From Marnyiella aurantia (GTDB lineage: Bacteria; Bacteroidota; Bacteroidia; Flavobacteriales; Weeksellaceae), in contig NZ_CP059472.1 in the NCBI RefSeq assembly GCF_014041915.1, forward strand, positions 558,001 to 622,000: a stretch of 64,000 bases of DNA, given 5' to 3'. Below are positions 15,140-20,567 of the stretch, piece after piece. The first letter of the stretch is position 1. Each line of letters starts with the position of its first letter. The notes below the pieces were generated by a model, which worked only from the letters and a program-made list of their open reading frames with translations, ran no database searches and was not told where the DNA came from. A program made the translations under genes and the position numbers.

Positions 15140-15541
15140 TCAAAGACTAAAATTCGTCACCAGATAGAAAGCGGCCCAGGCAACAAATACCAGCGCAATT
15201 ACCCAGACCCAAACGGGAATGGTGCGTGGATTTTCGCTTCCTTTAATGATAAAACTCTGGTTCCTTCCGGTATCATAGGCATTAAGCATCAACGGCAAGG
15301 TTCCGCTTACAGTTTCATTATCGGAAAGTCCTTCTATATGAATGATTGGCCCGTTTCGCACGGAAAAGTTTATCACCTTTACACCTTCCTTCCGGTCGAA
15401 TTTACTCACGATCTTCAGAGTATGAAAACCGTCAGTCAGTTTTGTGGTATCCAGGTTAAATATGACCGGGGTCTGCAATTCGGCCACAGGATTGGATTCA
15501 TCGTCTATATACAGCAGAACCAAGGCATTGTGTTCAGGCAT
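15140..15541 (-). CDS. Tail-anchored Ig-like protein in cbb3 operon
   Basis: 133-aa protein not assigned to a named family. Residues 1-100 are beta-rich with Asp/Thr loops and resemble an Ig- or FN3-like sandwich (a DGFHTLKIVSKFD-like strand pair); residues 107-130 form one C-terminal transmembrane helix. There is no N-terminal signal sequence, so the beta domain may face the cytoplasm or insert by tail anchoring. As last gene of the cbb3 operon, 11 bp after the previous stop codon, it is probably an assembly or accessory factor. This is inference from position. Confidence 0.6.
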   Translation of the reverse strand: MPEHNALVLLYIDDESNPVAELQTPVIFNLDTTKLTDGFHTLKIVSKFDRKEGVKVINFSVRNGPIIHIEGLSDNETVSGTLPLMLNAYDTGRNQSFIIKGSENPRTIPVWVWVIALVFVAWAAFYLVTNFSL

Positions 15542-15552
15542 TTATTTATTTT

Positions 15553-15813
15553 TTAAAATTCCAGTACGGTATTCTTGATGTGTTTGCTGCTTTTTTCGCC
15601 GGGCTTAATCAGGTATTTAAGTGAGTAAAAAAGGGTGTACAGCGTAATGACGGCAATGATAATCACGATTACCCAGTCCCAGTTCGAACTGGGGCCGGTT
15701 CCATGGGTAAGTTCCTGAGTAATTTCGGGCTGCTGCAGTTTGCAGGCATCACAGGCCCTGTACCATGCCGAGCCCAGCAATAAGATTATAAGTGTTAAAA
15801 GCGTGTTTTTCAT
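15553..15813 (-). CDS. Small membrane protein in cbb3 operon
   Basis: 86-aa protein with an N-terminal signal-like helix (about 1-18), a Cys pair in RACDACK, a short soluble segment and a transmembrane helix (about 47-67) with a basic tail. The ATG at 15813 lies one base after the stop codon of the ccoO-like gene, so translation is coupled; the TTG nine bases upstream would overlap that gene. The CDAC pair facing the periplasm could bind metal or take part in thiol exchange during copper or heme insertion. No family recognised. Confidence 0.65.
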   Translation of the reverse strand: MKNTLLTLIILLLGSAWYRACDACKLQQPEITQELTHGTGPSSNWDWVIVIIIAVITLYTLFYSLKYLIKPGEKSSKHIKNTVLEF

Positions 15814-15814
15814 C

Positions 15815-16804
15815 TTATTCAATTTTATCCATTATGGCCTGCACCTGTTCCGCGGTTACGGGATCTCCATTATTTCCCCAACTGCTGCGTTCGTGATTGA
15901 TGAGTGCGGCTACTTCTTCGGGTTTAAGCCCTGCGTTGGCACCCACCGCCGGCATTGCGGCAAATTCCGGCCGTGGGTCGTACCCTTTCATAATGATGGT
16001 TACAAAAAGCTCCAGATTGTCTCCCAGCACCACGGGGCTTCCTTTCAGCGGAGGAAAAGCGCCCGGCAAACCTTCGCCACCCGCCTGATGGCAGCTTGCA
16101 CAATTTGCTGTGAACAGTGCACTTCCATCAGGAAGAGTTCTCCCGCCGGCATTTGCTGTAGTTCCCTTCTCTTTTTTATATAAAAATTCTCCAGATGCTA
16201 TATTATCAGGTAAATCGGTTTGCTTCAGACTCAGCAGATATGCGACCAAATCCTGCGCATCCTTTGATGGGATTATTTTCCCGGTAAGCCCTGCCCTGAA
16301 GGCTGCAGGCACACTCACCTCCACATCGCCGGGCCCCAGATCCTCCTTTACCAGGAACAACCATTTGTAGGACGGCATTATGGATTCCGGAACCACAGAA
16401 CGTGGGTTGTATAAATGAGCGTACTGCCACTCTTTACTGGGCTGCCGTGTTCCTATACTTGTAAGGTCGGGTCCTGTTCTCTCCGTTCCCATCAGGGTGG
16501 CGGTATTCTGAAAAAGATTCAGTCTCCGGTTCCGGGCATAATCTGCAGCCATGCTGGGGCGCGACCCAAATACCGCATCCATGTCCACATTCCGTACCTG
16601 CTGAGTATGGCAGGCTACGCAGCCTTCTCTTATATAAACAGCTTTCCCATTGTTCTCACTTTCAGTGAGTGCTGCAGTACCGGGTAAAGGTTGGTTAATT
16701 TTTTCATTATTCAGCGCCGGCAGAATGCAGATAATCAGCGTGAGCACCAGAAAGAATGTCAGTGCGGCGGAGAACAGTTTTTTATGGTTGTTAAAGAAAT
16801 CCAT
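15815..16804 (-). CDS. ccoO: cbb3 oxidase subunit II (CcoO) fused to a cytochrome c domain
   Basis: 329-aa membrane-anchored diheme cytochrome c. An N-terminal helix (about 11-30) anchors a CcoO-like domain with heme site C62-VA-C65-H66 followed by a TQQVRNVD-like block. A second cytochrome c domain follows, with heme site C235-AS-C238-H239 and likely Met axial ligand in the AAMPAVG region. In canonical operons the second domain type lies in CcoP; here it is fused, so one polypeptide may replace CcoO and CcoP. Its ATG (16804-16802) overlaps the TGA of ccoN, implying coupling. Electron entry subunit of the terminal oxidase. Confidence 0.85.
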   Translation of the reverse strand: MDFFNNHKKLFSAALTFFLVLTLIICILPALNNEKINQPLPGTAALTESENNGKAVYIREGCVACHTQQVRNVDMDAVFGSRPSMAADYARNRRLNLFQNTATLMGTERTGPDLTSIGTRQPSKEWQYAHLYNPRSVVPESIMPSYKWLFLVKEDLGPGDVEVSVPAAFRAGLTGKIIPSKDAQDLVAYLLSLKQTDLPDNIASGEFLYKKEKGTTANAGGRTLPDGSALFTANCASCHQAGGEGLPGAFPPLKGSPVVLGDNLELFVTIIMKGYDPRPEFAAMPAVGANAGLKPEEVAALINHERSSWGNNGDPVTAEQVQAIMDKIE

Positions 16805-18537
16805 CAGACGTTCGCTTTTTTATGTTGAATGATTTCCAGCATATCTGCCGGAGTTTGCGGCAGGTAGATTTCCCTTCGGGGTTTGATCATCCGGTAGAAG
16901 TTGTACGCAAATACAATATGCGAAATCCACATCATGGTGCCTCCGATCGCGCGCCACAGCCAGTATGGAACCATCGTAACCACACTTTCAATAAAGGGCT
17001 GTTTATCCATCCACTGTATACCCTTCAACGTACTGCCGATCATCAGCGAAATGGTGTACACCAGTACTCCGATAAGCGCGAGCCAGAAATGGAGGCCCAC
17101 CGCGAGACTTGGCGGCTGGTAGGAGGTTATTCGCGGAACCAACGTATAGGTAAAAGAAAACAGCATGAACGTGATGATGCCGTACATCGTAAGGTGCGAG
17201 TGGGCCACTGTGAAATCGGTAAAATGCCACAGCAGGTTTGTACTTCGGAAGGCCTCCACGGTTCCCTGCATGGAACCTGTAAAATAAAAGATGATCGAAA
17301 CCACCTAAAACGGAAGCACATAACTGAGTTTCAGGCGGTGCCAGGAGCCGCGTATCGTCATCATAAAGTTCACGCTGCCGGCGGCAACGGGAATCACCAT
17401 CCCTACACTGGCCACAATCGCCACGGTCTGCATCCACCACGGAATGGCACTGAAGATAAAGTGATGCGTACCAATAAGGGTATAGAACAAAATCTGGGTC
17501 CAGAAGGCCAGAATACTGAGGCTGTATGAATAAACGGGGCTGTTCAGTTCCTGAGGCAGAAAATAGTACATAAGTCCGAGGTTAAGGAACATAAACCACA
17601 TGCCCACGCCCTGATGCATAAAATAGCCCTGAACAATGGTCTCGCCAAGGCCCTGTTGCCAGAAGGGAAGATAGGCAACAATCAGAATCGTAATTACAAA
17701 CATCATTGCTGAGACGATGTACCAGTTGGAGACGTAAATCTCTTCGGTCTTCCTGAACGCAATGGTCTTAAAAAGATTATACACCGTAATGATGATGCCG
17801 CCCGCAAAAAGCGCCATGACCGGCCAGATATATTCCCTGTATTCGCCGCCGCTGTTGTTTACACCGGCCACGAGCAGGATGCTGCCCAGGAGTACTGCAC
17901 TATTCATTAAAATCAGCGTATAGTATCCGGATTTAAGACTGAAAATCCTTGTATTCCCGACACGCGGAACCACATAATAGGAAAAGCCAACCATTGCCAT
18001 GGAAGCCCAACCCCGAAAGACCATATTGGTATGCACGGGTCTTAATCTCCCGAAGCTTAACCAACTGATGTGGTCGGCATCCGGGGCAACGAATTTTATT
18101 CCAAGATAGAATCCCACGGAAGTACCCACGAAAAGCCAGAAGATGGCACAGCCCAGATACCAGAGAATGAGCTGCCTCTCTTCAGCCGGAATCTGTACCT
18201 TCCCTTTAGATTCCCTCTTGGTATGCAGAAAACGGATGTCATGCACTTCGGTCGCCTGATCTATCAAGCCTTTGGGATCCTGAACACTTCTGTTCGGCGA
18301 AAGTTCGTCTCCTGCCAATTGGAACTCCAGTTCAAGGCGGCGCTCCTCCAGTTGAGTGATTTCGGTCGGTTGAAGGTTTCTGATCTTTTTGTAGATGCCT
18401 TTTAATTCTTTTGTTTTTAAAGTGTTTGAAATGATCCGGTTGATTCTGACCAGCATAAGGATCAGCGCAAAAATAATGGGTACGGAAAGGAGAATGATGG
18501 TGAGCTGCAAACCTGGCTCGTTCAGAAGTTTGTCCAT
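16804..18537 (-). pseudogene. ccoN: ccoN, cbb3 oxidase catalytic subunit, interrupted by in-frame amber codon
   Basis: A 577-codon frame with TAG at 17307-17305 (codon 411). Before it: an N-terminal extension (about 1-120, one helix plus charged linker), then CcoN helices with H169 (RPVHTN), H308 and the CuB pair H358-H359 (GTHHF). After it, in the same frame and intact to a TGA overlapping ccoO, come H446 and H448 (AHSHL), the expected heme b ligands. A product stopping at 410 would lack those ligands and be inactive. Either this is a recent nonsense mutation, a sequencing error, or the codon is read through. A GTG directly after the TAG could restart translation but not rebuild one chain. 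Confidence 0.85.
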
Positions 18538-18630: not shown

Positions 18631-19221
18631 TTAATAGTAAATTTTACGGTCATTTATCTGAAGCTGCCCTTCCTTTTCCATCATTTTCACTGTACGGATT
18701 ACCGTCTCCACCCGAAGTCCGGTAAGGTTTGCCATTTGCTGCCGGGTAAGCGGAAGGCAATAAAGACTTGTGCAGGTGGAGTGCATTTGTTTGAAATAAT
18801 CCATCAGACCGCTGAGACGGACGTGCGGGTCTTTGGAGAAAAGATTCTGGGACATCAGCATTTTATAATAAAGCCGTTGTGCCAGAGTCCTGTTAATGGC
18901 CAGCGAATATTGAGGATGAGCATGCAGAAGTTCAAAAAAGCGGTCTTTTGGAAGCTCCAGCACGGTGCTCGCGCTCAGCGCTGCTGCGTCGGTAGGATAA
19001 GACCTGTCCAGAAACAGTAAGGCTTCGCCAAAACACTGGCCTGTTTCAAAGATATGCTGAATAAATTCCTTACCGTCCTCACTGGTATTGCTCAGCTTTA
19101 CCTGTCCGGAAACAATCTGAAAATAATGCAGACCCAACGAGTGCTTTTCATAAATATAATCGCCGGTTTCATACGTGTGGACCGTAGCATCATAACTTTT
19201 TAACAGTTCTGCAGGAATCAT
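18631..19221 (-). CDS. Crp/Fnr family regulator upstream of cbb3 operon
   Basis: 196-aa regulator with a cyclic-nucleotide-binding-like beta-roll (about 15-120) and a C-terminal winged helix whose recognition region reads LTRQQMANLTGLRVETVIRTV. There is no FNR-type N-terminal Cys cluster; the cysteines (GQCFGE, STCTSLYC) do not match one. The long upstream frame to 19392 runs into the neighbouring gene's terminator, so ATG 19221 is chosen. Same orientation as ccoN, 93 bp ahead of it, with a palindrome in the gap. It probably controls the oxidase and possibly itself. Confidence 0.85.
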   Translation of the reverse strand: MIPAELLKSYDATVHTYETGDYIYEKHSLGLHYFQIVSGQVKLSNTSEDGKEFIQHIFETGQCFGEALLFLDRSYPTDAAALSASTVLELPKDRFFELLHAHPQYSLAINRTLAQRLYYKMLMSQNLFSKDPHVRLSGLMDYFKQMHSTCTSLYCLPLTRQQMANLTGLRVETVIRTVKMMEKEGQLQINDRKIYY

Positions 19222-19320
19222 GCTTAAAGATAGCGAATTGATTTGAAGAGCAGGCACCGCCATTCGAATTAACAGTACAATTGCCTCAACAGCTGACAAC
19301 CGGACCGCCGGTAAATAAAA

Positions 19321-19344
19321 TAAAAAAGCTCCCTTTCGGAAGCT
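19321..19344 (-). terminator. Terminator of the PLP lyase gene
   Basis: On the minus strand AGCTTCC-GAAA-GGGAGCT is followed by a T-rich run. It sits 5 bp after the stop codon of the gene at 19350-20567. Confidence 0.75.
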
Positions 19345-19349
19345 TAAGT

Positions 19350-20567
19350 TTAGCTGTTTGCAAGCTGCAACACACCGGTTTTCTCCATACATTCCCGCAT
19401 CTTAAGATAGGTGCGCTCAATGTCATGGTCCAGACCGATGGAAAAACGGATGAGTCCTGGTGAAAGACCCATTTCCTTTTGTTCGTCCTCAGGAATCTCG
19501 GATGATGTAGATGTACCGGAAGCACAGAAAAGTGTTTTATAGAACCCAAGACTTACAGCCAGATAACCCAGATTAGCTTCCTGCATGGCTTCCATAAGTT
19601 CATTTGCCTTCTCAACAGTCTTTACGTCCAGGGCTATAAGACCGCCGAAGCCGTAATCTTCATTCATCATTTCTGAAAAAAGCTCATGTTGCGGATGACT
19701 CTGCAAACCGGGGTATTTTACCTTCAGTCCATCCTCTTCCCATCTTTCAGCCAGATACTGTGCGTTCTCGCTGTGTTTTTTCATCCGTAAATGAAGAGTC
19801 CGTAGATTCTTAAGAATACTTGCAGCACGCAGGCTGTCCATGGTAGGACCTAGCAGCATGCACGCCCCGCTGTTCACATCTTTCAGCCGGTTAATGAAAT
19901 CTTCTGTTCCGCATATTGCACCGCCTACCGCATCGCTGCTACCGTTTATGAACTTGGTGAGACTGTGAATAGTAACATCAGCACCCAACAAATTTGGCGA
20001 TACCATGAGCGGCGAAAATGTATTATCGACCACCAACTGCAAATTATGCTTTTTCGCAAGCTCTGAAAGTGCGGTAAGGTCTGCCACTTCAAGAAGTGGG
20101 TTACTTACTGTTTCGCAGTAAATCATGCGGGTATTTTCGGTGATGGATGCTTCTACTGCCTCAAGATTGGTAATATCAACAAAAGAAGTATCGATTTTAA
20201 GACCAGGCAGGAAATTTTTCATGAATGCATACGTTCCGCCATAAATAGTGCGGCTGGAAACAATATGATCTCCTGACTTGCACACCTGAAGTAATACGGA
20301 TGTGATGGCCCCCATCCCTGATGCTGTTACATTCGCACTTTCGGTTCCTTCCATCTGCGCAAGTGCCTGAGACAGATAGAGGTTACTTGGAGATGTATGC
20401 CGGGAGTATAAATAACAACCTTCTGTTTTCCCCTCGAAGGTATCCGACATGGCTTTGGCCGTAAGGAATGTATAAGTAGAACTGTCCGAAATGGACGGAT
20501 TTACACCACCGAACTCTCCGAAGAACTGAAGGTCCTGAATGTTGTTTACTGCACTGAATTCTTTCAT
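19350..20567 (-). CDS. Cys/Met metabolism PLP-dependent enzyme (methionine gamma-lyase-like)
   Basis: 405-aa cytosolic PLP enzyme of the trans-sulfuration family. Visible landmarks: the active-site Tyr/Arg region YSRHTSPSNLYLS, the cofactor-stacking stretch SRTIYGGTYAF, an Asp in VVDNTFSPL that holds the pyridine nitrogen, and the Schiff-base Lys in SLTKFINGSSD. Members cleave methionine, homocysteine or cystathionine, or use O-acylhomoserine; the exact substrate cannot be read. The TTG at 20594 is rejected for ATG 20567. It is divergent from an Lrp/AsnC regulator, the usual partner for an amino-acid-responsive lyase. Confidence 0.85.
   Translation of the reverse strand: MKEFSAVNNIQDLQFFGEFGGVNPSISDSSTYTFLTAKAMSDTFEGKTEGCYLYSRHTSPSNLYLSQALAQMEGTESANVTASGMGAITSVLLQVCKSGDHIVSSRTIYGGTYAFMKNFLPGLKIDTSFVDITNLEAVEASITENTRMIYCETVSNPLLEVADLTALSELAKKHNLQLVVDNTFSPLMVSPNLLGADVTIHSLTKFINGSSDAVGGAICGTEDFINRLKDVNSGACMLLGPTMDSLRAASILKNLRTLHLRMKKHSENAQYLAERWEEDGLKVKYPGLQSHPQHELFSEMMNEDYGFGGLIALDVKTVEKANELMEAMQEANLGYLAVSLGFYKTLFCASGTSTSSEIPEDEQKEMGLSPGLIRFSIGLDHDIERTYLKMRECMEKTGVLQLANS

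Follow-up and report, generated by a model that had tools for sequence, protein, structure and literature searches.

The window analysed here, the whole stretch of 64,000 nucleotides from Marnyiella aurantia (positions 558,001 to 622,000 of NZ_CP059472.1), contains a ccoN-like gene interrupted by an in-frame TAG at codon 411, in which we see what is probably a genuine null allele that arose very recently in a dispensable second cbb3-like oxidase. We infer from the sequence that the TAG allele resides in the organism, and not in the assembly alone, and that no active enzyme would be made from it. Under this scenario a point mutation would have created the TAG, at which ribosomes would stop, RF1 being present and no recognised tRNA reading TAG; the truncated CcoN would lack its last part, including the putative ligand residues of heme b3 and heme b, no oxidase would be formed, and respiration would continue through the intact canonical ccoNO. 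A second radical change in the same gene, the replacement of tryptophan by arginine at codon 175 (W175R), would fit a gene freed from selection, or might itself have been the first hit. We favour very recent loss over a sequencing error because of the combined evidence of W175R, the patchy and sometimes broken occurrence of this accessory oxidase among relatives, and the intact canonical cbb3 oxidase that the genome also encodes.

Translation of the minus strand from 18537 to 16804 yields 410 codons, the TAG (17307-17305), 166 sense codons and a TGA (16806-16804), the final A of which also opens the ccoO ATG, a one-base overlap. The gene amounts to 577 codons, and its frame is open on both sides of the TAG. 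This agrees with the earlier note, which had described a TAG splitting ccoN at codon 411 and a downstream frame continuing without other lesion to a TGA overlapping ccoO. Both halves match the COX1 profile (PF00115) in consecutive parts, 2-305 before the TAG and 314-436 after it. An open frame arising by chance is ruled out, on the alignment, by the sense codon that all 50 distinct relatives have at position 411, a comparison akin to the alignment with sister strains that the note had proposed.

Codon 411 aligns with residue 310 of the CcoN chain in 3MK7, and the two histidines beyond the TAG to which the note had drawn attention, H446 and H448, correspond there to residues 345 and 347, which we take to be the ligands of heme b3 and heme b; both are invariant among 27 aligned sequences. 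Residues 60, 207, 251, 257, 258, 345 and 347 of 3MK7 presumably constitute the metal ligands and the helix-VII tyrosine of the C family. All seven are aligned and invariant, and two of the seven lie past the TAG. The lesion, which is private to this genome, removes H446 and H448, and a product ending at codon 410 would be unable to work as an oxidase because these presumed ligands would be missing. The coordinates of the gene and its neighbours are collected in Table 1.

Table 1. Features of the interrupted oxidase operon and adjoining genes, in window coordinates
Feature	Position	Strand	Basis or remark
133-aa ORF	15140..15541	-	kept in relatives' operon; Pfam/NCBIfam without match
89-aa ORF	15553..15822	-	adjoins ccoO in relatives too; Pfam/NCBIfam without match
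ccoO-like gene, 329 aa, FixO domain and second cytochrome c domain (two CxxCH)	15815..16804	-	profile match
ccoN-like codons 412-577 and TGA, including H446 and H448	16804..17304	-	aligned to 345 and 347 of 3MK7
In-frame TAG, codon 411 of ccoN-like gene	17305..17307	-	translation and relatives' codons
ccoN-like codons 1-410: extension of about 120 residues, then COX1	17308..18537	-	residues aligned to H60, H207, Y251, H257 and H258 of 3MK7
Codon 175, CGG (Arg) against Trp in 51/51 relatives	18013..18015	-	alignment count
Crp/Fnr-type regulator gene, upstream of ccoN	18631..19392	-	start codon uncertain

What kind of oxidase does the interrupted gene encode? Judged by its residues and relatives, the gene encodes the catalytic subunit of a C-family (cbb3-type) heme-copper oxidase, of a divergent second kind that is not the cell's main oxidase. 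The label of cbb3 ccoN given in the earlier note is right as to type, but it missed both the divergence of this kind and the canonical ccoNO located elsewhere in the genome. The solved relatives found by sequence search, five distinct sequences, are cbb3 oxidase chains; the best matches among them are two CcoN chains, 9g6b with E 5.4e-67 and then 3mk7 with E 9.6e-66. The host genome (2.61 Mb in a single contig, 99.75% complete, with a GC content of 43.1% in the genome sample, as compared with 40.4-40.8% reported for Planobacterium taklimakanense, PMC7660247, a difference that speaks against that species) contains two COX1 genes and gives no match to cytochrome bd subunit I. The other COX1 gene (G000:C1:1850801-1853059) is an intact canonical CcoNO, a fusion of 753 aa; the ORFs next to it have translations that we read as ccoP, ccoG and further cco-like genes downstream. 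Should the window oxidase be dead, no terminal oxidase recognised by the searches for COX1 and bd subunit I would be left apart from the canonical cbb3.

The two catalytic subunits, about 28-31% identical, share the six histidines and the tyrosine of the metal sites, since H169, H308, Y352, H358, H359, H446 and H448 are invariant in their joint alignment. In the canonical protein, however, CcoN and CcoO are fused, glutamate stands at the position of Gln424 (residue 323 of 3MK7), and the cut-off of TIGR00780, the NCBIfam ccoN model, is passed with 622 against 583 bits, whereas the window family shows none of these features: Gln424 is found in 50/50 relatives, and intact orthologues reach 253 and 265 bits. 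The orthologues of the window ccoN also share the N-terminal extension. At a presence threshold of E 1e-120 or better, the divergent operon occurs patchily, in 73 of 320 family genomes (74 matches) and in two of the four genomes of the genus, as against 315 of 320 family genomes for canonical ccoNO. Examples of the divergent kind, besides the operon at 15140-18537 of the window, are found at loci L112, L033 and L064.

Codon 411 encodes Tyr in 44 of the 50 distinct relatives (at least 55% identity), Phe in the remaining 6, and is a stop in none; three duplicates and one further locus (L049) had been omitted from this set beforehand, and more loci were dropped for identity or as identical sequences. 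The omitted L049 has a stop elsewhere in the gene and Tyr at 411. The sister species, represented by a metagenome-assembled genome (G003) with a CcoN 94% identical to that of the window, likewise has a sense codon here. Inner stops are present in three of the 74 divergent matches, namely in this genome, in G225 and in G317. The ccoN of G225, also a metagenome-assembled genome (8411-10108 of L195, from the same record as L049), has a TAG at window codon 330, and the rest of its operon is open; in G317 the inner TGA follows a frameshift and may be an assembly error. No inner stop was seen in canonical ccoNO among the 150 best-scoring matches listed. The contrast of 3/74 with 0/150 (Fisher p = 0.035) relies on the G317 frameshift and on the restriction to those 150 best-scoring canonical matches, and with in-frame nonsense only (2/74) it becomes p = 0.11. 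Chryseobacterium sp. E1 (L063) also has a ccoN with several frame breaks and a ccoO with one, perhaps as assembly errors. Canonical-type matches with inner stops were encountered in other families of the order (two TAA in G036, one TAA in G050), where the stops may precede the gene starts, as the query aligned from residues 75 and 100, within its own N-terminal extension.

The stop is accompanied by a second anomaly. The earlier note had held that everything else was intact, and this stands for the reading frames, the search for frameshifts suggestive of an ordinary pseudogene having found no break in the rest of the operon (15140-18537); it does not stand for the protein, in which W175R precedes the TAG. 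Among the 170 columns invariant in 51 relatives, W175R is the single residue unique to the window. When each of the 52 sequences was left out in turn, radical unique changes at otherwise invariant columns, defined by a BLOSUM62 score of -3 or less, appeared in two: W175R in the window, and W399I in L052, a sequence with 58.6% identity to the window and hence a much longer branch. H169, which aligns with the heme-b ligand, precedes codon 175 by six residues. At codon 175 the canonical protein of this genome has Phe and Comamonas badia Tyr. In a set of 22 sequences, this canonical CcoNO shows no residue of its own at the invariant columns. A dead gene predicts a change such as W175R, while neither a lone error at codon 411 nor a gene maintained by readthrough does so; W175R was spotted in the alignment before being counted, and carries less weight for that reason.

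How recent would the loss be? In comparison with the sister genome, dN/dS (Nei-Gojobori) is 0.040 before the TAG and 0.033 after it. Past the TAG, with Chryseobacterium lacus as the outgroup, the window branch has 2 codon changes that alter the amino acid and 19 that are synonymous, the sister branch 1 and 7. Over the whole gene the counts are 12:61 and 9:51, which gives no indication of a general dN/dS rise in the window ccoN (p = 1.0), with 14 amino-acid differences unassignable to either branch; ccoO displays a weak excess of amino-acid changes in the window branch (18:29 against 9:35, p = 0.07). About 176 amino-acid changes would be expected past the TAG had this part been unselected along the whole branch. 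On these substitution counts, the codons beyond the TAG evolved under purifying selection, and the loss would for this reason be confined to about the final 4% of the branch since its split from the sister species. Relaxed evolution takes up at most about 3.6% of that branch in the part after the TAG, and 3.3% by the whole gene, a rough bound, since substitution at synonymous sites is heavy and changes that could not be assigned are omitted. A gene under selection as strong as this (dN/dS about 0.04) can look clean save for one stop if its loss is recent.

The earlier note had left three options standing: an error, a very recent loss, and amber readthrough or reassignment. Our results favour the loss and contradict recoding, and the error, by which codon 411 would be a sense codon in the organism and both gene and oxidase functional, appears unlikely to us, though it is the main rival. 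A single base separates the TAG from the codons of relatives, purifying selection extends past it without detectable relaxation, and the remaining operon is unbroken, all of which an error would produce. The stop is also isolated, as no other sense-strand gene is clearly interrupted among 24 comparable stretches. This assembly control, in which ORFs of relatives were compared with the 24 target stretches (26 kb), is thin; it flagged five cases, two of them ccoN itself, two opposite-strand ORFs of known genes, and one ccoO (1/41 comparisons). Against the error stands W175R, where Trp in 51/51 relatives would demand either another error or a coincidental change with no relation to the stop. The genome, moreover, is one contig of high completeness, and the change is a substitution rather than an indel.

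We consider it improbable that readthrough, or restart at a GTG, still supplies small amounts of the accessory oxidase from a standing low-expression and reversible allele. Of the two routes, readthrough supposes that the TAG is tolerated as a short-lived, reversible variant, basal or near-cognate decoding giving enough full-length CcoN. Belinky et al. argue that many bacterial in-frame stops are read through, remark that these stops are short-lived, and count sequencing errors and pseudogenes among their sources (PMC7918605). The window gene resembles their cases in having one stop, no other frame lesion and low dN/dS on both sides, the signature employed in that work, but their set, as described there, consists of stops common to orthologues of at least two species, while here the stop is private and coupled with W175R (PMC7918605). 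Residue 411 is variable beyond the close relatives (Phe, Met, Leu, Val and Thr in farther homologues), and several inserted residues could be accepted. Nevertheless, we regard readthrough as quite improbable: RF1 is present, none of the 43 tRNAs has a CTA anticodon, no relative shares the stop, the full-length product would retain W175R, and low dN/dS is equally expected from a young loss. Should the oxidase be made despite the TAG, it would offer a neat test of minimal readthrough for a membrane enzyme. Restart would have translation end at the TAG and resume at the GTG immediately 3' of it, which opens a 166-aa ORF, to give a CcoN in two pieces. It seems far-fetched, given that relatives have an ordinary residue (Val, Leu, Ile or Phe) at position 412, hence no conserved start, and that W175R would persist.

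Genome-wide reassignment of TAG, or its programmed recoding, could appeal to the in-frame TAG itself and to the second TAG-broken copy, at another codon, in G225, yet deserves practically no credence, and amber reassignment is contradicted by RF1, the tRNA set, the use of TAG as a stop and the sense codon in relatives. RF1 scores 453 bits against a family cut-off of 423. The amber-suppressor tRNA whose search the earlier note had suggested did not turn up, the CTA anticodon being found in 0/43 tRNAs (43 tRNAs by Rfam, 43 anticodons by ARAGORN, with 150 of 155 first-look candidates scored). In 439 kb of the genome, all frames included, 424 open stretches span 150 codons or more, and TAG terminates 71 of them; in one clear case it divides a complete aminotransferase domain from a MurB-like protein that follows in frame. 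The note had also proposed looking for other TAG-interrupted genes. In a codon-bias scan of the same 439 kb, with a score that separates coding from non-coding sequence weakly, stops flanked by coding-like sequence show no excess of TAG (14/158, against 39/437 for TAA and 33/265 for TGA). Five of the 14 TAG cases, picked by hand and compared with Pfam, yielded no family spanning the TAG, three of the five being without match on either side. The genetic code of the organism is left unchanged by this TAG.

The very recent loss that we favour would be one more apparent loss of a second terminal oxidase through point mutation, and such ccoN stops are already known. Premature stops caused by point mutation are described for ccoN in all 14 strains of Bordetella pertussis examined (PMC11257404). 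As here, nonsense affects the catalytic subunit of a cbb3 oxidase, and the lineage keeps other oxidases; there, however, it is the canonical operon that has been lost, and the allele has gone to fixation among the strains, while here a divergent second operon is concerned, in one genome (PMC11257404). In Neisseria meningitidis, likewise, one base change produces a TAG, which truncates CcoP (PMC2924362). The likeness extends to a single-base TAG in a cbb3 subunit gene, but that truncation removes the third heme domain of CcoP, whereas ligands of the catalytic subunit are removed here (PMC2924362). Among the papers listed on ccoN premature stops, or on cbb3 and Chryseobacterium, no title or abstract opening reports the present allele.

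The ccoO adjoining ccoN contains the CcoO/FixO domain (PF02433), and no separate CcoP is found among the ORFs at 15140-18537, a CcoP-like cytochrome domain being fused to ccoO instead. The order of ccoN, ccoO with two cytochrome c motifs, the 89-aa ORF and the 133-aa ORF is kept together in relatives as well. The closest named relatives of the window ccoO belong to Weeksellaceae (Chryseobacterium, Empedobacter, Kaistella); more distant ones come from other Bacteroidota and further phyla, including Myxococcales and Gemmatimonadetes records. The Crp-like gene lies directly upstream of ccoN here and in some relatives. In the sister genome G003 this regulator (L112:12193-12812) is split across two frames near residue 143/144, and it is interrupted by a stop in L034 and by breaks in L051.
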